In this document: positions 3,683 through 14,801 of the stretch, in pieces
Position numbering within the stretch: position 1 is the stretch's first letter
Layout of the letters: each line of letters opens with the position of its first letter
From: Aphanizomenon flos-aquae FACHB-1287
GTDB lineage: Bacteria > Cyanobacteriota > Cyanobacteriia > Cyanobacteriales > Nostocaceae
Direction of reading: 5' to 3'
Length of the DNA stretch: 44,763 nucleotides
Assembly: GCF_014698755.1 (NCBI RefSeq)
Contig: NZ_JACJTO010000036.1
Location: forward strand, 1-44,763
The notes under the pieces: generated by a model
What the model saw: the letters and a program-made list of their open reading frames with translations, nothing else
Told to the model about the DNA's origin: nothing
The model's database searches: none
Made by a program: the position numbers and the translations under genes

Positions 3683-4447
3683 TTACCAATCTACTGGTAA
3701 ACCCAGTTTATCTAAGGTTTTGCCATCTTGCAATAGTGGTTGAATATCGCTATCTATTTGGATTTTACCATTAGATAAGACTAAAGCCCGTTGGGTGACT
3801 CTTCCTAGCCACTGGAGATCATGTGAAGCTATTAACATCACTTTTACAGGTAATTCTAATAATACTTGGGCTAAATGTCGTCGCCATGCTGGGTCTAGTC
3901 CGTTAGTTGGTTCATCTAAGATGAGAATGTCAGGATTTAGGGCTAAAATCGCTGCTAAGGCGGCTAAACGTCTTTGTCCTCCAGAAAGTTCATGAGCGGA
4001 ACGGTGGGCGTAGGATTCTAATCCAAAGTTGGCTAATAGTTGATGAGCTTTATCTTTTGCAGCTATGGATGAAATACCATAGTTAAGGGGTCCAAAGGTG
4101 ATATCTTCGAGGATTGTGGGCATAAATAATTGGTCATGAGGATCTTGAAAGCTAAAACCAATTTGTTGCCTGATTTGCGGTAAAGTGTTTGGCAATATCG
4201 GTATACCGTTAATCCAAATTTTGCCGCTTTGGGGATGTTTTAAGCCAATGAGGTTTTCTAATAAGGTGCTTTTGCCTGAACCAGTAGCACCCATTAAAGC
4301 GACGCGATCGCCTGTCTGTAAGCTAAAAGAAATTTCTTGTAATACAGGGTGCTGTTGTGAATAAGCGTAAACCAGATTTTGGACGGTAACAACAGCAGTA
4401 TGGGGTTGAGAAAGAGAAATTTGGGGATTAGAAGTTAATGATGTCAA
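3683..4447 (-). CDS. cbiO: Energy-coupling factor ABC transporter ATPase, cobalt/nickel (CbiO/NikO type)
   Basis: 254 residues. Walker A is GATGSGKST, the Q-loop is in FSFQDPHDQLF, the ABC signature is LSGGQRR, and Walker B is ILILDEPTNGLDP, followed by the switch His in IASHD. The FQDPxDQ stretch is characteristic of ECF-type ATPases. It hydrolyses ATP to drive Co2+ or Ni2+ uptake through CbiM and CbiQ. It is the last gene of a minus-strand operon: it begins 10 bp after cbiQ ends. The first 15 or so residues are a low-complexity extension before the ABC domain, so a slightly later start is possible. Confidence 0.93.
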   Translation of the reverse strand: MTSLTSNPQISLSQPHTAVVTVQNLVYAYSQQHPVLQEISFSLQTGDRVALMGATGSGKSTLLENLIGLKHPQSGKIWINGIPILPNTLPQIRQQIGFSFQDPHDQLFMPTILEDITFGPLNYGISSIAAKDKAHQLLANFGLESYAHRSAHELSGGQRRLAALAAILALNPDILILDEPTNGLDPAWRRHLAQVLLELPVKVMLIASHDLQWLGRVTQRALVLSNGKIQIDSDIQPLLQDGKTLDKLGLPVDW

Positions 4448-4457
4448 GATTCACCAC

Positions 4458-5117
4458 TCAAATAACAGTAAGGTAAGAACTTAGGGTTAAACAAGCAGCT
4501 ATCACCCCAGCTATTAACAAGATAAAACGTTCTTTCGGTTTGGGGGGGGAATCTAGGGGTAATTGTCCATTATATCCACGGGCTACCATAGCACCATAAA
4601 CTCTTTCGGCTCTGTCGAGGGTGCGGAGATATAAAGCCCCAATCATGGCAGCACTAGCATAACGTAGCCATCCTGCTGTACCATTTAAACCACGTAGTTG
4701 GGCACTGCGCTGCATTCGTGTTACTTCTAAGAGTAATATTTCTAAGTATTGTCCAGCGAGAATCAGGTTTTCCTTTAATGGTGCAGGTATGGGTAAGCTT
4801 TTGAGCGCAATACCCAAACTGTGGGGAGGTAAGGTTAATAAAAAGCCATTCATGACAATTAAACAAATTAGGGAACGCACAAGCAAAAAACTAGCTCGTT
4901 CCCATCCCAATGGTAAGGCCACCAGGGATAAAAAAATTAATTCTGTACCCAGTAGACCGCCTAATTTGGGTAGGGGTACTTGTAACAAATAAATCCAAAC
5001 AAGAGCGATCACCCCGTATACTAGTAAATTAGACCAAGTATGATACTTTAAAAAAGCTGCCCCAATTACAATAATTAGGGACAATTGCAAGCGTAATGGT
5101 AGGGAAATTTGCATCAT
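4458..5117 (-). CDS. cbiQ: Energy-coupling factor transporter T component CbiQ
   Basis: 219 residues with about five hydrophobic segments. The conserved coupling-helix region reads EVTRMQRSAQLRG and later AERVYGAMVARGY, matching the two Ala-Arg-Gly-type signatures of ECF T proteins that contact the ATPase. It is the transmembrane scaffold linking the substrate-binding CbiM to CbiO. At roughly 220 residues it is near the usual CbiQ length. It begins 2 bp after cbiM ends and is followed 10 bp later by cbiO, so the three are almost certainly co-transcribed. Confidence 0.92.
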   Translation of the reverse strand: MMQISLPLRLQLSLIIVIGAAFLKYHTWSNLLVYGVIALVWIYLLQVPLPKLGGLLGTELIFLSLVALPLGWERASFLLVRSLICLIVMNGFLLTLPPHSLGIALKSLPIPAPLKENLILAGQYLEILLLEVTRMQRSAQLRGLNGTAGWLRYASAAMIGALYLRTLDRAERVYGAMVARGYNGQLPLDSPPKPKERFILLIAGVIAACLTLSSYLTVI

Positions 5118-5119
5118 AA

Positions 5120-6043
5120 TTAAGCATTGTTCGGTCTAATAATTTTGGCAATTCCAAAAGCTATACCAAAGCAAGCTGTAGCACCTATCAAACCAGCAAT
5201 ACTTGTACCGATTTTCCCTAAACCCTGAATACTGTAATCAGCTAAAGGTGTGGGGACAATTACCCGCACATTTTCCGCTAAATCAATAAATCCTAAGTTG
5301 ATTGCTACCTTTTCCAAACCATCAGGCCAAGCAGAAGCACCTAGGGATAATACACCAGAAATCAGTAAAATACTGACAATGGGAACTAACCAGCCTCTAA
5401 TTTTCTGTTCTTCACCTGGTAACAAATCTGGACGAGTTGTAGCTAAGTAATTTAGTACCCCCCCAGTAATTAATCCTTCACCTACACCAATAAGAATATG
5501 TACACCCGCCATGGTGGGTAAAACTAGGTTGACTGCTGCTGTTCCAGACAGAGCTAATTCAATAGCACAAGCTATAGCGGCAACAACTACACTAACTCCC
5601 GCTGCTATCCCTGCCGCTAGGGGTAAACGCCCTTGAGAACCGCCAAATAGTCTTTGTAAAGTTTGCGTTAATCCCCAAGCCACCCACACGCCGATGACTC
5701 CCATGTTAAAAATATTTGCTCCCAAGGCAGTAATTCCACCATCGGCAAATAACACGGCTTGAATAATTAAAACCGTGGCAATACATAACATTCCTGCCCA
5801 AGGACTACCCAAGATAATGGCTGCTAAAGCCCCTCCCAATAGGTGGCCGCTTGTCCCCCCCGCTACGGGAAAATTAATCATTTGGGCGGCGAAAATAAAG
5901 GCTGTGGTTAAACCGAGAATGGGGGCGCGACGAATGCCAAAAGCTGTTTGCGATCGCTCAAAAGCAACAAATAAAGCTGCCGCACTGGCTAAACTGGTAG
6001 CGACTGCAACTGGCACAGAAATAAATCCATCGGGTATGTGCAT
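5120..6043 (-). CDS. cbiM: Cobalt/nickel transporter substrate-binding membrane subunit, CbiM fused to a PDGLE domain (NikMN type)
   Basis: 307 residues. The N-terminus is exactly MHIPDGF; in this family the metal is bound by the free amino terminus and His2, so the ATG start at 6043 is firmly fixed. About six membrane segments form the CbiM part (roughly 1-205). A C-terminal PDGLE domain follows (WPDGLEKVA near 240, then a final membrane helix), which in other genomes is a separate NikN/CbiN-type protein. Fused MN architectures are often nickel systems, while the gene names default to cobalt; the metal cannot be decided here. I see no cobalamin riboswitch in the 280 bp upstream. Confidence 0.92.
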   Translation of the reverse strand: MHIPDGFISVPVAVATSLASAAALFVAFERSQTAFGIRRAPILGLTTAFIFAAQMINFPVAGGTSGHLLGGALAAIILGSPWAGMLCIATVLIIQAVLFADGGITALGANIFNMGVIGVWVAWGLTQTLQRLFGGSQGRLPLAAGIAAGVSVVVAAIACAIELALSGTAAVNLVLPTMAGVHILIGVGEGLITGGVLNYLATTRPDLLPGEEQKIRGWLVPIVSILLISGVLSLGASAWPDGLEKVAINLGFIDLAENVRVIVPTPLADYSIQGLGKIGTSIAGLIGATACFGIAFGIAKIIRPNNA

Positions 6044-7103: not shown

Positions 7104-7550
7104 TTATTCTTGACGAGGATCTGATAGTGGTGGATGCCAACCCGCTTCTACCCAAAAACGCCGAGCAACTTGAATAGAAGGCTCATCACGTCTTTCATCA
7201 TTGAAGTCAAAGCGATCGCTAGTAGCTCTTCCTGTAGGCGTTGTACCTACAATTTTTATACCATCTTTTGTCCAAATGAAATTCTCTGACCATTCTTGCT
7301 GACGAGGGTTAAATAAAGCAACTTGCTCTTGAGTTTTAGGATCAGTAGCTACTATAAAATTATAATGACGCTCATTACAGCGATGACAAGCCAAGGCTAA
7401 ATTCTCCAGTTCATCTGAACCCCCCAAAGACTGCGGCATAATATGATCAATGGTAAACCGGTCGGGACTCAGATATTCAGGAGAGTGGCAATATTCACAG
7501 AGAAATTTAGCTCGTTTTCTTATAAGTCGTCGAGTTGGTTCGGACACCAT
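7104..7550 (-). CDS. HNH endonuclease
   Basis: 148 residues. An N-terminal CEYC zinc pair (Cys18, Cys21) is followed by the HNH core: IDHIMPQSLGG with Asp35-His36, then LALACHRCNERH with Cys55, Cys58 and Asn59. This is the Cys4-HNH fold found in many small bacterial endonucleases. It is predicted to cut DNA, but the target is unknown. The C-terminal 80 residues (FNPRQQEW, WTKDGIKIVGTTPTGR) are typical of the cyanobacterial subgroup. Its start overlaps the end of the small upstream gene by 31 bp, so the two are translated as a pair. Confidence 0.9.
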   Translation of the reverse strand: MVSEPTRRLIRKRAKFLCEYCHSPEYLSPDRFTIDHIMPQSLGGSDELENLALACHRCNERHYNFIVATDPKTQEQVALFNPRQQEWSENFIWTKDGIKIVGTTPTGRATSDRFDFNDERRDEPSIQVARRFWVEAGWHPPLSDPRQE

Positions 7551-7789
7551 TTACTTTTAGCCGCTAGTTGAGCATTAATTAAGGTAAATATTCGCTGTAA
7601 CTCCGAGATACCTACATATTCCGCTTCCTCTTCAGAAGTCAGCGTATCAGATTTTTTCTTTGCTAATAGTTCTTCAAAACGTATCTGCAGTTCTTCGGTA
7701 AATTTAAATAGATAAATATTACCAAATTCACTCATCTTCATACCAGAAGATATTAAAGACGAAGGTTGAACCATTAATTGAGTAGCCAT
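7520..7789 (-). CDS. Small conserved protein paired with the HNH endonuclease
   Basis: 89 residues, acidic and helical, without membrane segments. The central part reads FTEELQIRFEELLAKKKSDT, then LTSEEEAEYVGISELQRIFT and INAQLAAKS. I recognise this as a small family that repeatedly precedes HNH endonuclease genes in cyanobacteria, but I know no assigned function. The 31-bp overlap with the HNH gene suggests translational coupling. The arrangement would fit a nuclease with a partner or inhibitor, which is inference only. The beginning of this gene is duplicated at 6905-6968. Confidence 0.7.
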   Translation of the reverse strand: MATQLMVQPSSLISSGMKMSEFGNIYLFKFTEELQIRFEELLAKKKSDTLTSEEEAEYVGISELQRIFTLINAQLAAKSKWCPNQLDDL

Positions 7790-7824
7790 TGTATGTTCAC
7801 AGTGTCTTTATTTCTATTATCTCA

Positions 7825-7931
7825 TAAAAAATCCTGTAAATCCTGTAAATCCTGAAATCCTGGATATCCTGATTCAGACAAAAATCCTGAAAATCCTAAA
7901 ATCCTGGACATCCTGATTCTGACAAATAAAA
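7825..7931. repeat. Degenerate ATCCTG-type direct repeats
   Basis: About nine units beginning ATCCTG (ATCCTGTAA, ATCCTGAA, ATCCTGGAT and similar), twice interrupted by a TTCWGACAAA word. A shorter version stands at 6972-7011. This repeat family is common between genes in filamentous cyanobacteria. Here it separates the divergent HNH operon and the Uma2 gene. Confidence 0.75.
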
Positions 7932-7970
7932 TATCATATAATAGTGAATAAATAGTCACCTTAATTAACT

Positions 7971-8546
7971 ATGCAAACCACAGAATCACCCTTACAATTA
8001 CGGCTGTGGACTGTTGATGAATACCACAGAATGGCTGAAGCAGGAATATTTGAACCAAGTGAACGGGTAGAATTATTAGAGGGGAAAATAATCTGGATGA
8101 TTGCTAAAGGAACAGCCCACCGTTCAGCAGTGGGAAGAACATATAAGTTGTTGGAAAATAGAATTGGTCATAAAGCTTGCATAGCTATTCAAGACCCTGT
8201 AAAATTAAATGAAAGGTCTGAACCAGAACCAGATATTGCTGTGGTGAAAATAGATCCCCTAGACTATGCAGATCATCATCCTACCCCAGCAGAAATTTAT
8301 TTAATTATCGAAGTTGCAGATAGTAGTTTAAAACTAGATACAGAAATCAAAGCTAAAGCTTATTCTCAAGCAGGAATTAAGGATTATTGGGTATTAGATG
8401 TAGTGAAACGCGAGTTAATTGTATTTAGAAATCCCACAGCAGAAGGTTATCAAAATCGAGAAATTATCACAGAACATCAAAACATATCTCCTTTAGATTT
8501 TCCTGATTTAGAAATTGTAGTTTTCCAGATGCTACCTCTTGTCTAA
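7971..8546 (+). CDS. Uma2-family (DUF820) putative endonuclease
   Basis: 191 residues. The Uma2 layout is complete: WTVDEYHRMAEAGIF, ERVELLEGKI with Glu37, HRSAVGR, the PEPDIAVV block with Asp88, then LIIEVADSSLKLDTEIKAKA and the AGIKDYWVLD strand. The fold is PD-(D/E)XK, with Asp88 and Glu114 the likely metal ligands. Members are hugely amplified in cyanobacteria and their biological role is unproven. The ATG at 7971 is preceded by no strong ribosome-binding site. The gene stands alone after the ATCCTG repeats. Confidence 0.88.
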   Translation: MQTTESPLQLRLWTVDEYHRMAEAGIFEPSERVELLEGKIIWMIAKGTAHRSAVGRTYKLLENRIGHKACIAIQDPVKLNERSEPEPDIAVVKIDPLDYADHHPTPAEIYLIIEVADSSLKLDTEIKAKAYSQAGIKDYWVLDVVKRELIVFRNPTAEGYQNREIITEHQNISPLDFPDLEIVVFQMLPLV

Positions 8547-8873: not shown

Positions 8874-9878
8874 ATGTCTGACAACTTTACTGAGAGTAAA
8901 AATAAAATTTGGCATCGTCGTCAACTGCTACAACTGGGATTTTCCGGTGCATTCATGATCACGACAGGGACAATTTGGCAAATTTTAAACAGCAAAAATT
9001 ATGCCAGTGTCAAAATACCACCCATAAAAATAACAGCTTCTAATGGTGCTACTAACCCCATGCAGGTGTTACGAGATTTTGATTATGGGACAATTAAACA
9101 GGAAAATGGGCGCGTAGTCCGCGAATTTCGCTTAATTGCTGGTACTTCCACCATTCAGCTTAATAGTGCTGTCTCCTATAATATTTGGGATTTAAACGGA
9201 CGCATTCCTGGACCCACACTCCGGGCTAAAGAAGGAGAAAAAATAAGAATACTTTTTCTCAATAATGCCGGACATTCCCATTCTTTGCACTTTCATGGAG
9301 TTCATCCCGCTGAAATGGATGGTATCAAACCCATAGGTAATGGCAAGGCAACCATATATGAATTTGATGCCGAACCCTATGGCGTTCATTTATACCACTG
9401 TCATGTCGCTCCGGTTACTCGTCACGTTGCCAAGGGATTATATGGAATGTTTATTATTGATCCTCCTAAACCCCGTCCCCCTGCTGATGAAATTGTTTTA
9501 ATCATGTCTGGCTATGATGTAAATGATGATAACCGCAATGAGTATTATGCTTTTAATGGCGTGCCACATCATTATATGCACCATCCTATTCAAATTTATC
9601 AAAATCAGTTAATTCGTGCCTATGTTTTGAATATTATTGAATTTGACCCCGCTGTAACGTTTCATCTTCACGCTAATTTCTTCGATGTTTATCCTTCGGG
9701 AATGACAATGAATCCCAGTGTAAAAACGGATGTTTTAACCATGGGTGTAGCAGAAAGACATATTTTAGAATTTGCTTTTAAGTATCCAGGTAAGTATATG
9801 TTTCATCCTCACCAAGATGCTATTGCTGAAAGCGGTTGTATGGGACAATTTGCAGTAATTTCAGAAAAAGACTCCTAA
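8874..9878 (+). CDS. Two-domain multicopper oxidase, Tat-exported
   Basis: 334 residues. The N-terminus HRRQLLQLGFSG (Arg15-Arg16) followed by a hydrophobic stretch is a twin-arginine signal, so the protein should fold with copper and cross the membrane. Domain 1 has LHFHG (His139, His141) and YHCHVAP followed by His184; the Cys176-x7-His184 spacing matches the type 1 copper site of NirK-like proteins, with Leu189 where the axial Met would be. Domain 2 has FHLHAN (His264, His266) and FHPHQDAIAESGCMG (His311, His313) and no T1 Cys in the motif. This is the type C two-domain layout. Ferrous iron or cuprous copper oxidation is likely given the downstream FTR1 permease, but nitrite reduction or laccase activity cannot be excluded. 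Confidence 0.88.
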   Translation: MSDNFTESKNKIWHRRQLLQLGFSGAFMITTGTIWQILNSKNYASVKIPPIKITASNGATNPMQVLRDFDYGTIKQENGRVVREFRLIAGTSTIQLNSAVSYNIWDLNGRIPGPTLRAKEGEKIRILFLNNAGHSHSLHFHGVHPAEMDGIKPIGNGKATIYEFDAEPYGVHLYHCHVAPVTRHVAKGLYGMFIIDPPKPRPPADEIVLIMSGYDVNDDNRNEYYAFNGVPHHYMHHPIQIYQNQLIRAYVLNIIEFDPAVTFHLHANFFDVYPSGMTMNPSVKTDVLTMGVAERHILEFAFKYPGKYMFHPHQDAIAESGCMGQFAVISEKDS

Positions 9879-10274
9879 AATTTTGAGTATTGAAAAAGTT
9901 AAGAATTTTGTATTTTGAAAATATATTGAGACTAAAATATTTATGCAATCAAGTTTTTATCTAAAAACCCGTTCCCAGATCAAATATAGTTCTATAAATT
10001 TTCATATTCTGACAAATTTATTAGCTTCATATATAAGTAATAATTATCATAAATCAAGGAAAATATAAAAAAAAATCACAAAAGATATTTCTTTTTTTGC
10101 TAAAAGAATGTATGATTTAATAATCACAAAAATATCATCCCATTATCAAATTAATAGCACATCTGAAAAAGTTAATTTTGCTAAGACAATTCCCAACTAA
10201 ATATTAACTTAGAAGTTATTTGGGGTAAATTTAGCAGTTATAAATCATGATGAGATAGAGATTTTGGTAATTAA
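9879..10274. other. AT-rich intergenic region between the oxidase and the membrane-protein genes
   Basis: 396 bp with no credible coding frame. It contains long A and T runs and one dyad resembling half of a Fur box (listed separately). It is long enough for its own promoter, so the genes from 10275 onward may be regulated independently of the oxidase. Confidence 0.5.
10038..10049. promoter_or_regulatory. Possible Fur-like box
   Basis: TAATAATTATCA is one base from the palindrome TGATAATTATCA. The surrounding 19 bp match about 12 positions of the classical GATAATGATAATCATTATC consensus. It lies about 225 bp before the first membrane-protein gene. In so AT-rich a region chance matches are frequent. 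Confidence 0.25.
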
Positions 10275-10934
10275 ATGAATATTTTTGATCACATCATTAC
10301 AGGAGCATTGATAGTGTTAGACTCAGGCATTAATTCAACTTCAGAAACCTTTCCCAAACAGCTAGATATCGCCAAAGTTACTGTGTATGGATTGAGTATT
10401 TTATCAGCAGGAATGTTTCTATTTTTGCCATTTTTTAATCTTTTACATCCCAGCCCTTGGCAGCGTTCCATAGGCACAATTCACGGCGTAGGAGCATTGC
10501 TGGCAACAGTTGTTGCTGTGTATACAGGACATTTAGCCTTTCCCTTGCTACGAGGTGCAAGTAAGATATTACCGCAGATGCGTACCCTAACATTTTGGTC
10601 TAGTGTAATTGCATTTTTGGGTATCGCTACAGGCAATTTAGCATATATGCGTTATCGGGCTGGAATAGAATTTGGTGGTGCAAGAGCTTGGCTAAAAGAA
10701 AACTCCCCTTTAGTCCAATATGTACTTATGGAATACCACGAATTTAGCGTTTTATTTACCTTGCCATTAGGGGTAGCTTGTAGCTGGATTTTATGGCAAT
10801 ATGGCGACTCAATTTTAGAAAAACAAAACCGTCCCGTTCTCACAGCTACTTGTGTGGCTTTAATAGCCATGATGTTTTTTGCCATGGGTGGTTTAGTAAC
10901 TGGAATTGGTGTCGCTAAAATTCACGCTTTGTAA
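10275..10934 (+). CDS. Five-helix membrane protein with conserved-looking histidines, unknown function
   Basis: 219 residues with about five hydrophobic helices (roughly 35-54, 65-88, 100-124, 145-175, 189-215). Histidines sit at helix ends or inside helices: TIHGVGA in helix 2, YTGHLAF at its end, and YHEFSVLF in helix 4. This distribution resembles DUF2231-like and cytochrome b-like membrane proteins, so heme or metal binding is possible. I do not recognise the exact family. It starts the run of genes leading to FTR1 and is 34 bp before the next membrane protein. A role as electron acceptor or partner of the exported oxidase is inference only. Confidence 0.75.
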   Translation: MNIFDHIITGALIVLDSGINSTSETFPKQLDIAKVTVYGLSILSAGMFLFLPFFNLLHPSPWQRSIGTIHGVGALLATVVAVYTGHLAFPLLRGASKILPQMRTLTFWSSVIAFLGIATGNLAYMRYRAGIEFGGARAWLKENSPLVQYVLMEYHEFSVLFTLPLGVACSWILWQYGDSILEKQNRPVLTATCVALIAMMFFAMGGLVTGIGVAKIHAL

Positions 10935-10968
10935 TTAGCTTTGTAATTAAATTCTTGAGGATTATTTG

Positions 10969-11445
10969 ATGAATAAACAATCTCAATTTTCTGAAATCGC
11001 ACCAGAACCACAACCTATATATGGTAGATTTTGGCAGTCATGTAAACAATTTCCCCGATTTTTAGCAGCAGGTTCAAATCATCCACCAACGGTTTCTGGA
11101 CCGGCAGCGGCAGCTTTAATTAGTGCAGCAATTGGATGTTTTACAATGATGGTGGCACATCATTTTTCTGATACTAATAAAAACATAGAGAAAATGATTT
11201 GGTCATTGGGAAGTTGGATACCAGGCAGCCATAACCCCAGTAAAATGTGGGGTAATATTGGCAGTTATTCTGGGAAAGAAACAATCTTACTTATTAGTTG
11301 GTTGGTGAGTTGGGCTATTCTTTCCCTACTTTGGAACAACAAAAAGATTAAATCGAGAACGATATTTTTCTGGCTGTTTACCTTAATGGTTGCTGCTACA
11401 GCAATGAGTTGGCATCCTCTTTTTCCCTATTTACCATTAACCTAA
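10969..11445 (+). CDS. Three-helix membrane protein, unknown function
   Basis: 158 residues from the ATG at 10969. The GAGG at 10956-10960 gives a ribosome-binding site with normal spacing; an in-frame TTG one codon earlier is less likely. About 45 hydrophilic residues are followed by helices near 46-69 (ending MMVAHHFSD), 103-123 (ETILLISWLVSWAI) and 130-158 (ending SWHPLFPYLPL). His-His and Trp-His pairs lie at membrane edges. I know of no named family, though similar short proteins occur beside FTR1-like genes in cyanobacteria. It is 34 bp after the preceding gene and 28 bp before the next, an evident operon. Confidence 0.7.
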   Translation: MNKQSQFSEIAPEPQPIYGRFWQSCKQFPRFLAAGSNHPPTVSGPAAAALISAAIGCFTMMVAHHFSDTNKNIEKMIWSLGSWIPGSHNPSKMWGNIGSYSGKETILLISWLVSWAILSLLWNNKKIKSRTIFFWLFTLMVAATAMSWHPLFPYLPLT

Positions 11446-11473
11446 ATCAAGCAAAAAATCAAGGGACTGAATT

Positions 11474-11686
11474 ATGCAAACACAAACAACAGAGAATACT
11501 AGCAAAGAAAAGATACTAGGGAGAGATTTACACAAATATATCTGGCTTTTAGTCGGGGTTTTTGCTCTCTTGACTGTTACTTATCCTACATCTATGATGC
11601 GCGTTAGTCAGAAGGAAAAGTTTAAAGGCTTTCATATTAAGTCCTTACCCGCTGAAAGCAAATATTACTCCGATTCTGCAAAGTAA
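11474..11686 (+). CDS. Small single-pass membrane protein, unknown function
   Basis: 70 residues: a hydrophilic N-terminus (about 20 residues), one membrane helix (YIWLLVGVFALLTVTYPTSM, about 23-42) and a basic then polar tail of about 28 residues. The AAGGGAC sequence before the ATG gives a usable ribosome-binding site. It is the third gene of the operon starting at 10275, and its size suits a small subunit or assembly factor of the neighbouring membrane proteins. Nothing in it indicates catalysis. Confidence 0.65.
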   Translation: MQTQTTENTSKEKILGRDLHKYIWLLVGVFALLTVTYPTSMMRVSQKEKFKGFHIKSLPAESKYYSDSAK

Positions 11687-11725
11687 AGACCCCATGCAGC
11701 TTTGACACAAGCATTTGCAATGGAG

Positions 11726-11795
11726 TCTAATTAGGTTTTCTTGTTTTTAGTTTCTCATTTCCAGGCGGCCACCTGGGAATGAGTACCCAATTAGA
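11726..11795. repeat. Nested palindromic repeat unit
   Basis: Outer arms TCTAATTAGG (11726-11735) and CCCAATTAGA (11786-11795) enclose an inner 10-bp hairpin CATTTCCAGG / CCTGGGAATG (11756-11781) with loop CGGCCA. The nesting and the compact 70-bp size suggest a mobile palindromic element rather than a simple terminator. It lies in the 315-bp gap before the lipoprotein gene and could also end transcription of the membrane-protein operon. Confidence 0.6.
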
Positions 11796-12001
11796 TTATA
11801 AGCTTTAATACCTTGAAATCGGAGCATTAAGAGAAAATAAAAATAAAATATTAAAATTATACTCAATTTCTCTAACTAGTTGATAAAAACTTTTATTTAT
11901 GATAAATTACCATAGACAGCTATTGCAAATACTTATTAGTTTTTGACTGGATATCAGAAAAATAGCTAAAACTTTGACTTAAATCCTATTTTGGAGTAAA
12001 A

Positions 12002-13030
12002 ATGATTAAATTCCGTTATTTATTCCTGTCTATTGCTGCTTGTACCTTAATTTCCTTGAGTTCTTGTACCGGCAATACAGTAAAATCAGATATTAAATCA
12101 ACACCAACTGTAGCCCAAGTGGCAGAAACTAGCACCCATAGCGGTCATAGTGGTAAAGCTAAAATTAATATCAATAATGCAATTTTATCGCAGTTAGATA
12201 AATTAGAAGCTACATTAGGAATTCCGGCTTTATCTAACAAAATTCAAGCTAATCGTCCTTATGGTAATCCAGCAGATTTAGTCAGCAAAAAAGTAATTAC
12301 TCAACCACAGTTTGACCAAATTAAAGATATGGTGACAGTGGAGGAAGTTGTATTAACAGGTGAAGCCAAAGATATTGACTATATGACAAAATTGGGATTA
12401 ATGAAAGGACATCTTTTAGTAGCCCAAGAACTGTTAGATCAAAATCAACCCAAACAAGCTCAACCCCATATTGGACACCCAGTAGAAGAGATTTATATTG
12501 ATATTGAAGAACAATTAGATGAACGTAAAGTTAAAGAATTTAAAAGTAACTTAGTCAGTTTAACAGATTTAGTGAAATCCAATCCCAAGGATGCCAAAAT
12601 AAAAACTAATTTTACCACTGCTATGCAAGCTGTTGATAATGCTATTGCTGTTTTACCAACCGAACAACGCAGCCAACCCGAATTTATTCTACCAGTAATC
12701 AACAGTTTATTAGATGCCGCTAACTCAGAATATGGTGCAGCAGTAGCAAAAGGTAAAATTAGCGCCCCCATTGAATATCAAGATTCTCGTGGCTTTGTAG
12801 TCTATTCTCAAGAACTATATAAAAGTATTTCTAGTCAAATGATCCAAGAAAATCCCGAAGCACACAAAGCCATAGATACAGCTTTTGGAGAATTAGTCAA
12901 AGTTTGGCCTGCTGCTATTCCCCCAGCGCAAGCAGTCAAAACCCCGGAAGATGTTACCAAACTAGTGAAAACCATTGAGGAAAATACTCAAAAAGTGCGA
13001 GAAAAAACTCACAGTAAAACCATGAGTTAG
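12002..13030 (+). CDS. Lipoprotein with helix-hairpin-helix domain and helical C-terminal domain
   Basis: 342 residues. The signal ends in a lipobox at Cys22 (LSSC), so it is membrane-anchored outside the cytoplasm. A His/Ser-rich linker (THSGHSGK, about 45-52) precedes a ComEA/PsbU-like helix-hairpin-helix domain (ININNAILSQLDKLEATLGI, then RPYGNPADL, about 54-112). The rest is helical with several His and Glu (HIGHPVEEIYIDIEEQL) and may be a four-helix bundle comparable to imelysin or EfeO-type iron-binding domains. That comparison is based on composition only. GGAG before the ATG is the ribosome-binding site. Its position between the membrane proteins and the ferritin and FTR1 genes suggests a periplasmic iron-handling role. 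Confidence 0.75.
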   Translation: MIKFRYLFLSIAACTLISLSSCTGNTVKSDIKSTPTVAQVAETSTHSGHSGKAKININNAILSQLDKLEATLGIPALSNKIQANRPYGNPADLVSKKVITQPQFDQIKDMVTVEEVVLTGEAKDIDYMTKLGLMKGHLLVAQELLDQNQPKQAQPHIGHPVEEIYIDIEEQLDERKVKEFKSNLVSLTDLVKSNPKDAKIKTNFTTAMQAVDNAIAVLPTEQRSQPEFILPVINSLLDAANSEYGAAVAKGKISAPIEYQDSRGFVVYSQELYKSISSQMIQENPEAHKAIDTAFGELVKVWPAAIPPAQAVKTPEDVTKLVKTIEENTQKVREKTHSKTMS

Positions 13031-13128
13031 CATTTTCACAATATTAAAAGTCCAGAATAAACAGTTTAAAATCATAAATAAGGGAGAAAATAATTTATAG
13101 CTAAGGGTGAGAATATTTTCATTTTGGA

Positions 13129-13221
13129 TAGGACTTACGCACAAATCACGGAATAACGAACCACAGAGGCACGGAGGACACGGAGGAATGAGGTTTTCAG
13201 AGATATTTTGCGTAATTCCTA
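13129..13221. mobile_element. MITE-like element with TAGGACTTACGCA ends
   Basis: The 13-bp ends TAGGACTTACGCA and TGCGTAATTCCTA are inverted with one mismatch and enclose 67 bp, including ACGAACCACAGAGGCACGG. This is a very common dispersed element in filamentous cyanobacteria. No transposase frame fits inside, so it must depend on an enzyme elsewhere. Confidence 0.75.
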
Positions 13222-13299
13222 TCTAAAAAAGTGTAATTTATTGCTCATAATTAGTAACTCAAGACTCTCCTCATGTAATTTTGCTCAACTTAACAACTA

Positions 13300-13734
13300 A
13301 TGCAAGAACTCGACCACCAAAAAACCATTGATATTCTCAATTCCATTATGGAATTTGAATTAGCAGGGGTAGTTCGCTATACCCATTATTCCTTAATGGT
13401 GACAGGTCCAAATCGTATTCCTATTGTGGCATTTTTCAAGGCCCAAGCCGCAGAATCTTTATTACACGCTCAACAAGTCGGAGAAATTCTTACAGGTTTA
13501 GAAGGACATCCTACATTAAGAATCGCTCCCATGGAAGAAACTTTCAAACATAATGTTAAAGACATTTTACAAGAAAGTTTATCCCATGAAAAGAAAGCTT
13601 TGGATATGTACAAAAGTCTTCTAGAAACCGTCGCAAATGCTAGTATTTATCTAGAAGAATTTACCCGTGGTATGATCGGACAAGAAGAAATGCACAATCT
13701 CGAACTCAAAAAAATGTTACGGGATTTCAGTTAA
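13300..13734 (+). CDS. Ferritin-like / bacterioferritin-type iron-storage protein
   Basis: 144 residues, all helical, four-helix-bundle size. The iron ligands appear as Glu18/Glu20 (MEFELAGVVRYTHY), Glu52 and His56 (AAESLLHAQQ), His96-Glu97 and Glu129/Glu130 with His132 (GQEEMHNLE). The spacing ExxxH in helix 2 differs from the ExxH of E. coli Bfr but is seen in cyanobacterial relatives. No haem-ligand Met is certain. It would oxidise and store iron delivered through FTR1, 95 bp downstream. The ATG lacks a strong ribosome-binding site. Confidence 0.88.
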   Translation: MQELDHQKTIDILNSIMEFELAGVVRYTHYSLMVTGPNRIPIVAFFKAQAAESLLHAQQVGEILTGLEGHPTLRIAPMEETFKHNVKDILQESLSHEKKALDMYKSLLETVANASIYLEEFTRGMIGQEEMHNLELKKMLRDFS

Positions 13735-13770
13735 TACAACAGCAGTCAGGAGTCAGGAGAAGCAAAATCT

Positions 13771-13824
13771 ACAACTGACAACTGACAACTAACAACTAAC
13801 AACTAACAACTAACAACTAACTAA
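13771..13824. repeat. Heptanucleotide tandem repeat (CAACTAA)
   Basis: About seven uninterrupted units of CAACTGA/CAACTAA sit between the ferritin and FTR1 genes and end 6 bp before the FTR1 start codon. It replaces the usual ribosome-binding region, so FTR1 translation initiation may be weak or coupled. Copy number is likely to vary between strains. Confidence 0.8.
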
Positions 13825-13829
13825 ATAAA

Positions 13830-14801
13830 ATGAATTTTAGTACCGCCTTACCTACTTTTGTAATTACCCTCCGAGAAGGTGTAGAAGCCGCTCTAGTTGT
13901 GGGTATTGTCCTCGCATTATTGAAAAAAGCTAAACAATCTCAACTCAATTCTTGGGTATATGCTGGTGTTATTGTTGGTATTATAGTTAGTGGTTTAATC
14001 GGTATTTTATTTACTGGGATCATTAAATTCCTAGCATCTATTAATCCTCAGTATACCCCTGTAGTTGAGCCAACATTAGAAGGTGTATTTAGCATTTTAG
14101 CAATAGTCATGCTCAGTTGGATGCTAATCTGGATGACAAAACAAGCCAGATTCATGAAAGCACAAGTTGAGGGAGCAATTACCCAAGCACTGGGAAAAAA
14201 TTCAAATGCAGCTTGGGGAGTTTTTAGTTTAATTTTAGTCGCCATTGTCCGCGAAGGATTTGAAACTGTTTTATTTGTCGCAGCTAATTTTCAACAAGGT
14301 TTATTACCAACTTTAGGCGCGTTTGGTGGTTTAGCTACAGCCGCAGCAATTGGTTTTTTATTGTTTAAATGGGGGGTGAAAATTAATATCCGTCAATTCT
14401 TCCAAGTTATGGGCGTTTTATTAATATTAATTGTTTCCGGTTTAGTAGTATCTGGTTTACAACATTTTGATGAAGCTATAGCTAATTTAGCTCTGAGTAG
14501 TCGTTCTTCAGAAAATCTTTGTTTCTATTACGAACACTTCACAAGCATTCACTCTTGTATTTTAGGTCCAATAGTTTGGAATACTGAAAATATCTTATCT
14601 GATGAACAGTTCCCCGGTATCATTCTCAAATCATTATTTGGTTATAGAGACAAAATTTATATTGTTCAAGCCGTAGGATATTTAGTATTTCTTGTTAGTA
14701 TTGGTGGACTATATTTCCGCAGCATTACAGGCGATAATAATCAAACTAGCAAAAATAAAATCATGACCAGTAACATCAAGGAGGAATTAAAAATTAAGTG
14801 A
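13830..14801 (+). CDS. FTR1-family iron permease
   Basis: 323 residues with about seven membrane helices. Both FTR1 iron motifs are present: REGVE (Arg15-Glu19) in helix 1 and REGFE (Arg141-Glu145) in helix 4. In yeast Ftr1 and bacterial EfeU these ExxE-type sites carry ferric iron made by a ferroxidase. The C-terminal region is longer than minimal FTR1, with a Cys pair in NLCFYY and SIHSCILG, and it ends in a hydrophilic tail. With an exported multicopper oxidase, a lipoprotein and a ferritin in the same run, high-affinity iron uptake is the natural reading. The start directly follows a tandem repeat. Confidence 0.92.
   Translation: MNFSTALPTFVITLREGVEAALVVGIVLALLKKAKQSQLNSWVYAGVIVGIIVSGLIGILFTGIIKFLASINPQYTPVVEPTLEGVFSILAIVMLSWMLIWMTKQARFMKAQVEGAITQALGKNSNAAWGVFSLILVAIVREGFETVLFVAANFQQGLLPTLGAFGGLATAAAIGFLLFKWGVKINIRQFFQVMGVLLILIVSGLVVSGLQHFDEAIANLALSSRSSENLCFYYEHFTSIHSCILGPIVWNTENILSDEQFPGIILKSLFGYRDKIYIVQAVGYLVFLVSIGGLYFRSITGDNNQTSKNKIMTSNIKEELKIK

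Follow-up and report, generated by a model that had tools for sequence, protein, structure and literature searches.

A run of seven co-oriented genes in Aphanizomenon flos-aquae FACHB-1287 probably includes an oxidase-dependent module for ferrous-iron uptake, built from a new combination of parts. The genes occupy positions 8874–14801 on the plus strand of contig NZ_JACJTO010000036.1, analysed over its 44,763 nucleotides (hereafter, the window), and encode, from left to right, a multicopper oxidase (MCO), membrane proteins A and B (memA and memB), a small protein C (smlC), a lipoprotein, a ferritin-like protein and an FTR1-family iron permease (Table 1). MCO and lipoprotein form a firmly conserved core, with FTR1 and ferritin as frequent partners and the membrane trio as an occasional one. 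A sequence-only reading of this DNA had described co-oriented genes for an oxidase of the twin-arginine translocation (Tat) type, a lipoprotein, a ferritin-like protein and FTR1 together with three membrane proteins that it could not name, and the seven plus-strand open reading frames and their Pfam matches bear this out. The A-B-C genes are separated by 28–34 bp; all other intergenic gaps are 95–396 bp, so a single transcript for the seven genes remains putative.

Linkage of the genes across cyanobacterial genomes

Each part was searched for in the same 244 cyanobacterial genomes, with neighbours defined as lying within 8 kb, MCO places taken at E up to 1e-60, and second gene pieces (lipoprotein in G231 and G133, memA in G099) dropped before counting. 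This yielded 94 FTR1 places in 79 genomes (one place below the family cut-off), 48 lipoprotein places in 48 genomes, 44 MCO places, and 16 memA places in 15 genomes. First, the oxidase and the lipoprotein accompany one another, with an MCO near 39 of the 48 lipoprotein genes and a lipoprotein near 39 of the 44 MCO genes. Secondly, FTR1 is close to both, at 32 of the lipoprotein and 27 of the MCO places. Thirdly, as seen from 92 FTR1 loci, ferritin is the commonest of the tested neighbours (45 loci), followed by the lipoprotein (30), MCO (26), CbiM (15), memA (7) and an M75 protein (3); none of these is near the remaining 36 loci, some of which are short of flank. The grouping of MCO, lipoprotein, ferritin and FTR1 is repeated in many genomes and is therefore not a chance arrangement, and the expectation of the sequence-only reading that the neighbourhood would be conserved in other cyanobacteria is upheld for these four genes. 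We note that two genomes, G125 (L103, L251) and G167 (L190, L252), have two FTR1 systems each, one FTR1 adjoining an M75 protein and the other being of the MCO-lipoprotein-ferritin type (L104, L216).

Table 1. Genes of the cluster and of the adjacent transporter, with window coordinates and the basis of each assignment.
Feature	Position	Strand	Basis or remark
MCO, 334 aa, two-domain, twin-arginine start	8874..9878	+	Matches to Pfam Cu-oxidase_2 and _3 above the cut-off
Membrane protein A (memA), 219 aa, roughly five long helices	10275..10934	+	Alignment and predicted model; family-less
Membrane protein B (memB), 158 aa from ATG	10969..11445	+	Local likeness to CcsA/CcmC
Small single-helix protein C (smlC), 70 aa	11474..11686	+	Recurs near memA
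Lipoprotein, N-terminal helix-hairpin-helix (HhH) and C-terminal eight-long-helix domain with GHPVEE	12002..13030	+	Alignment, predicted model
Ferritin-like protein, 144 aa	13300..13734	+	PF00210
FTR1/EfeU-family iron permease, two REGxE motifs	13830..14801	+	PF03239
Divergent ECF transporter, cbiO-cbiQ-cbiM(N)	3683..6043	-	Frequent neighbour; outside the proposed mechanism

The oxidase, the permease and the ferritin

The MCO has the two cupredoxin domains, trinuclear histidine set and T1 cysteine of a two-domain multicopper oxidase. Eleven residues are invariant across the 21 alignment rows (H136, H139, H141, H175, C176, H177, H184, H264, H266, H311 and H313), comprising the eight trinuclear-site histidines, the T1 Cys, H136 and H184. 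There is an RR pair at residues 15–16, which we take to be a Tat motif, and the closest solved relatives in the PDB are the MCOs 3gdc and 7rab.

The permease matches PF03239 with 186 bits (cut-off 25.3) and contains REGVE at residue 15 and REGFE at residue 141, two REGxE motifs being present in 50 of 53 sequences of the FTR1 set; its scores against the NCBIfam models EfeU (187 bits, cut-off 255) and TIGR00145 (235 bits, cut-off 304) are both below threshold. According to extracts of a published study, Synechocystis ftr1, printed there as slr0964 (Table 3) and as slr0696 (text), is upregulated under Fe deficiency (PMC11221513), which fits an uptake role of the permease family in cyanobacteria. 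Immediately upstream of FTR1 in the window is a run of short CAACTAA-like repeats (approximately 13774–13826). The ferritin-like protein matches PF00210 with an E value of 5.5e-19 (69 bits, cut-off 24.5), and residues E18, E20, E52, H56, E97, E129 and H132, invariant in 35 rows, are presumably its metal ligands.

Two forms of the lipoprotein and their iron-related neighbours

The lipobox cysteine of the lipoprotein, assigned by position as C22, is invariant in 21 of 21 rows, and the HhH region matches HHH_3 with an E value of 4.8e-5, under the Pfam cut-off. The lipoprotein profile retrieves two forms, one bearing the HhH domain and the other lacking it or having only part of it. The HhH-bearing form has FTR1 within 8 kb at 30 of its 31 places among the 244 genomes; in the one exception (G048) the lipoprotein and FTR1 are on different contigs, and G231, also counted in the 31, is divided between contig ends. 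The other 17 places hold HhH-less or partial lipoproteins, 11 of them with an MCO within 8 kb; the HhH-less proteins are mostly by MCO and away from FTR1, and HhH-less or partial remnants adjoin FTR1 in G019 and G051. The HhH domain recognised by the sequence-only reading is real, but what the MCO-paired relatives have in common is the C-terminal helical domain.

Iron genes are present in nine of the 14 HhH-less or partial loci inspected, five loci having been typed with hidden Markov models (HMMs). Typed genes include FeoA (L229, L232), a Fe2+-dependent dioxygenase (L233, L235), the iron uptake porin NF033921 (L235, L240), and two bacterioferritins with Bfd (L235). The FeoA-domain protein lies directly 5′ of the MCO-lipoprotein pair, which hints at a further use of the pair in a Feo-type system. 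Like iron genes were judged by eye at L234, L236, L237 and L241, and none was recognised on reading L230 (a 3-kb contig), L231, L238, L239 and L242. In the two genomes of L240 and L241, both of family code f25, the MCO and HhH-less lipoprotein adjoin a porin, typed as iron uptake in L240, and the FTR1 search found no match in either genome. Relatives of the C-terminal part are also carried by two alphaproteobacterial plasmids (36% and 27% identity; tblastn against 72,556 plasmid records), followed in a Roseovarius plasmid by an annotated Fe2+-dependent dioxygenase and in the second plasmid by a MauG-like protein that carries a cupredoxin domain. Because HhH-less forms away from FTR1 adjoin iron genes, an iron role is supported independently of the permease; these settings link the lipoprotein family with metals, iron in most cases, without appeal to FTR1.

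The likeness of the GHPVEE segment to the HxxE motif carried by EfeO/EfeM (M75) proteins (PMC9174327, in extract) was remarked before any fold search, and H159 and E162 of this segment are invariant in 21 of 21 HhH-bearing rows. In a wider set of 19 rows the HxxE motif is kept in most, lost in L239 and L242, and reads GHPVDE in three; it recalls the EfeO/EfeM site, of which it would be a putative counterpart. In a predicted model (pLDDT 81 from 21 rows) the HhH domain is followed by eight long helices; compared by Foldseek with 350,542 PDB chains, the model has EfeO, EfeO and EfeM as its top three matches (probability 0.91–0.97, but weak E values of 0.1–0.3), with PsbU at ranks 6 and 7 (through the HhH part) and Algp7 at 11 and 18. 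VIA-align returned unspecific helical bundles, and the lack of EfeO and EfeM among its matches does not count against the fold. The sequence comparisons give a different picture: hhalign against 12 cyanobacterial M75 proteins (from 16 PF09375 matches) assigns probabilities of 1.6% and 15.8%, the window lipoprotein does not match PF09375 (M75, imelysin) at E 0.1, nor does anything in the whole host genome, and two of 19 relatives match it (best E 0.0018). A GGEGG segment is found in 6 of the 19 wider-alignment rows and 4 of 12 M75 rows and in none of the 21 HhH-bearing rows. An imelysin recognisable by sequence is rejected on the Pfam and hhalign results, and we retain the fold-level suggestion alone, namely that the C-terminal domain may be EfeM-like.

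The A-B-C membrane cassette

A scan with the memA alignment of contigs from 84,980 species located at least 80 loci, and the 80-locus figures that follow are those among the matches listed. All are cyanobacterial by title except one metagenome-assembled genome titled Gracilibacteria, and memB and smlC accompany memA in 73 and 72 of the 80, respectively; the window memA is 100% identical to that of Dolichospermum planctonicum NIES-80, and a search of the plasmid collection found no memA. Of the 44 memA loci flanked by 8 kb or more on each side, 26 have FTR1 within 8 kb, and 28 have at least one of FTR1, ferritin, MCO and the lipoprotein at that distance. In the 244 genomes FTR1 is within 8 kb at 8 of the 16 memA places, an intermediate outcome for the sequence-only reading, which had placed the three proteins in the iron cluster and would have been contradicted had they occurred mostly away from FTR1 and oxidase genes: they are near the permease about half of the time, but constitute a cassette of their own. 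All seven genes as a single conserved unit is accordingly rejected, memA being occasional at FTR1 loci and the cassette often elsewhere. A weak memA match in G016 (E 3.8e-4), counted among the 16 places, was not accepted as a cassette, having no memB or smlC match beside it. In L060 (3856–4578) and L059 (8049–8795) smlC is lengthened at its C terminus by about 170 residues, and in L062 memA is broken and a fragment like this extension remains.

None of the three proteins matches a Pfam or NCBIfam family over cut-off, and searches of PDB sequences with the memA and memB profiles yielded no usable match. In memA, H70, H86 and H155 are invariant in 60 rows; its predicted model (pLDDT 83) has weak Foldseek matches to cytochrome c oxidase chains, b561 and bd oxidase, all with E of 0.07 or more, and VIA-align again returned unspecific helical bundles. 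The memB open reading frame begins at TTG 10966, although translation more likely starts at the ATG at 10969; across 40 rows H66 (numbered from the TTG) does not vary and H150 hardly varies. With E values of up to 1 admitted, PF01578 matches 21 of 40 memB members (best 4.2e-5) and the next most frequent family matches 4; the window member scores 15.5 bits against a PF01578 cut-off of 29.9, and the commonest NCBIfam match is ccmC (2 of 40, best E 0.0022). When aligned by hhalign with 15 CcsA-type proteins (from 37 matches), memB gives a probability of 18% and an E value of 0.0013 over 40 columns with 38% identity, and memA gives 0.9%. The 40 columns (GSY..KET..LI.WL) are flanked in memB by H66 and H150, whereas the WxWD haem-binding motif of CcsA/CcmC is absent from memB in the alignment with a CcsA-type protein and memB is about half as long. 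A haem-handling or cytochrome role for the cassette is therefore no more than a lead, and the suggestion of the sequence-only reading that the membrane proteins are redox partners is weakly supported by this local likeness.

It is quite possible, although short of probable, that the cassette is an unrelated passenger and that the ECF-containing region is a tolerant insertion site. Half of the cassette places are elsewhere, and the gap between the ECF genes and MCO in the window looks variable since an HNH endonuclease gene (minus strand) and a Uma2-type putative restriction endonuclease gene (plus strand) sit there (7104–8546). The cassette and the ECF genes are also often found together, a CbiM relative being present in 31 of 42 iron-linked versus 1 of 38 unlinked memA loci, and within 8 kb in 24 of the 44 with full flanks. 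However, the order of the cassette and its side relative to MCO, lipoprotein and FTR1 differ between lineages, which disfavors a single fixed insertion site: the order is MCO-ABC-lipoprotein-ferritin-FTR1 in the window and other Nostocales, ABC-MCO-lipoprotein in Oscillatoria, and ABC-ferritin-FTR1 in Microcoleus, with a divergent arrangement in L160. Moreover, one genome retains two cassettes (L058/L052), one by its only MCO match and one by lipoprotein-ferritin-FTR1.

These varied arrangements beside the cluster are in favor of another reading, possible but less likely than not, in which the cassette works within the iron system as either a haem membrane electron carrier or a ferric reductase that gives Fe2+ to MCO and FTR1. 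FTR1 is present in 14 of 15 genomes with memA versus 65 of 229 without it (Fisher p 7e-7, kinship ignored); because common descent inflates such simple odds, we judge the linkage by the differing gene orders. On a memA tree of 60 rows, of which 45 were labelled and 15 with short flanks left out, the iron-linkage label changes at least six times by parsimony, and starred branches force at least two of these changes. The invariant histidines of memA, its weak matches to haem proteins of the oxidase and b561 types, and the CcsA/CcmC likeness of memB point the same way. Against this, some half of the cassettes have no FTR1 nearby, no iron gene was seen among the families read that recur beside these stand-alone cassettes (at least four loci, among the matches listed), most MCO and lipoprotein loci have no cassette, and every memA fold score is weak. 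We therefore treat A-B-C as a separate and optional membrane complex, perhaps haem-handling or a b-type cytochrome, that seems to have joined the locus more than once.

Regulation and the neighboring ECF genes

Fur-box-like sites were sought with the E. coli consensus in 300 bp of upstream sequence against dinucleotide shuffles, although cyanobacterial Fur sites may differ. A first run, in which the larger families were capped at their first 25 usable rows and 60 shuffles were used, gave matches at p<=0.05 for memA (1/25), memB (0/25), ferritin (2/25), FTR1 (1/25), MCO (3/22), lipoprotein (1/22), CbiM (4/25), CbiQ (3/25) and control genes (0/60). In a second run with all usable rows and 150 shuffles there is no enrichment for ferritin (1/40), FTR1 (1/40), MCO (2/22) or lipoprotein (1/22) relative to controls (4/150), nor for memA (3/74), the last being a further point against the cassette as a working part of the iron system. 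One ferritin upstream region (L146) has a 17/19 match to the Fur consensus. Because the E. coli consensus may not be that of the host, the scan speaks neither for nor against iron control. Matches are enriched upstream of CbiM (8/34 versus 4/150, Fisher p 1.8e-4, the rows being related; for example L134 and L152), sites that could serve another Fur-family regulator. The window ECF transporter is of the Co/Ni type, with cbiO, cbiQ and a cbiM that has a CbiN-like tail.

Proposed function

In the favored reading, of an oxidase-dependent uptake module, Fe2+ would arrive in the periplasm and be oxidized with O2 by the Tat-exported two-domain MCO, whose copper ligands are intact and whose iron substrate is suggested by context. 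The lipoprotein would then take the Fe3+, perhaps through its EfeO/EfeM-like helical domain, and dock it to FTR1, the HhH domain possibly being an FTR1-specific adaptor given its observed association with FTR1 genes. Fe3+ would enter through the REGxE helices of FTR1, as expected for the family, and the ferritin would store the imported iron. A more elaborate form seems rather unlikely as a whole: that a two-domain MCO together with a lipoprotein of a new, EfeM-like family stands in for the EfeO/EfeB pair, that the HhH domain (PsbU/ComEA-type) docks FTR1 and not DNA, and that an optional three-protein haem membrane complex feeds electrons or iron, together making a further FTR1 class.

The same genes could be used for detoxification, with MCO and lipoprotein oxidizing and holding excess periplasmic Fe2+, ferritin storing it and FTR1 clearing the periplasm. 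The adjoining ferritin genes, and elsewhere bacterioferritin with Bfd, are compatible with such a role, as is the occurrence of the MCO-lipoprotein pair with no FTR1 nearby; however, the neighboring FeoA, iron uptake porin and FTR1 genes are uptake genes by name, and we consider detoxification unlikely. That the MCO is a cuprous or Mn oxidase with iron only a secondary substrate is improbable: two-domain MCOs are often laccase-like and the names of its closest PDB relatives carry no substrate, but its steady partner lipoprotein sits among iron genes in several settings, and a copper-transport gene was not noticed in those stretches, although no search was aimed at one.

The routes other than FutABC and FeoB by which iron crosses the cyanobacterial inner membrane are of importance for blooms and aquatic productivity, and in bacteria FTR1 has for the most part been attributed to EfeUOB or to P19-type systems. 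The lipoprotein family spans small-genome cyanobacteria (family code f25), Nostocales and the two alphaproteobacterial plasmids, and a yeast-like pair of oxidase and permease with a definable lipoprotein family offers direct knock-out targets. The near-perfect association of HhH with FTR1 provides a simple, testable rule.

Comparison with known iron-uptake systems

We found no description of an MCO-lipoprotein-ferritin-FTR1 cluster in cyanobacteria in the open-licence papers searched. As in the yeast Fet3p-Ftr1p system, an MCO is encoded with an FTR1 permease bearing two REGxE motifs. The window MCO, with its two domains and Tat-type start, differs from Fet3p, which has a membrane anchor; Fet3p has three cupredoxin domains according to extracts of PMC9174327, and the cluster adds the helical lipoprotein and the ferritin. 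With EfeUOB and EfeUOB-M it shares an EfeU-family permease, an HxxE motif and a lipoprotein whose model has EfeO and EfeM as its top PDB matches, but an MCO is in place and the seven genes include neither a DyP peroxidase nor a sequence-recognisable M75 protein; DyP was not matched in the seven proteins by Pfam or NCBIfam, the rest of the genome not having been searched for it. FtrABCD and FetM-P19 likewise combine an FTR1-family permease with a periplasmic copper protein (FtrB or FtrA), proposed as the ferrous oxidase (PMC11966278), although P19-type proteins, single-domain cupredoxins and polyferredoxins are absent from the seven proteins (Pfam, E 0.1). The view of the sequence-only reading that this FTR1 cluster is neither EfeUOB nor FTR1 with P19 thus stands, and the best reading is that it would work like Fet3p-Ftr1p and EfeUOB while belonging, by membership, to neither.

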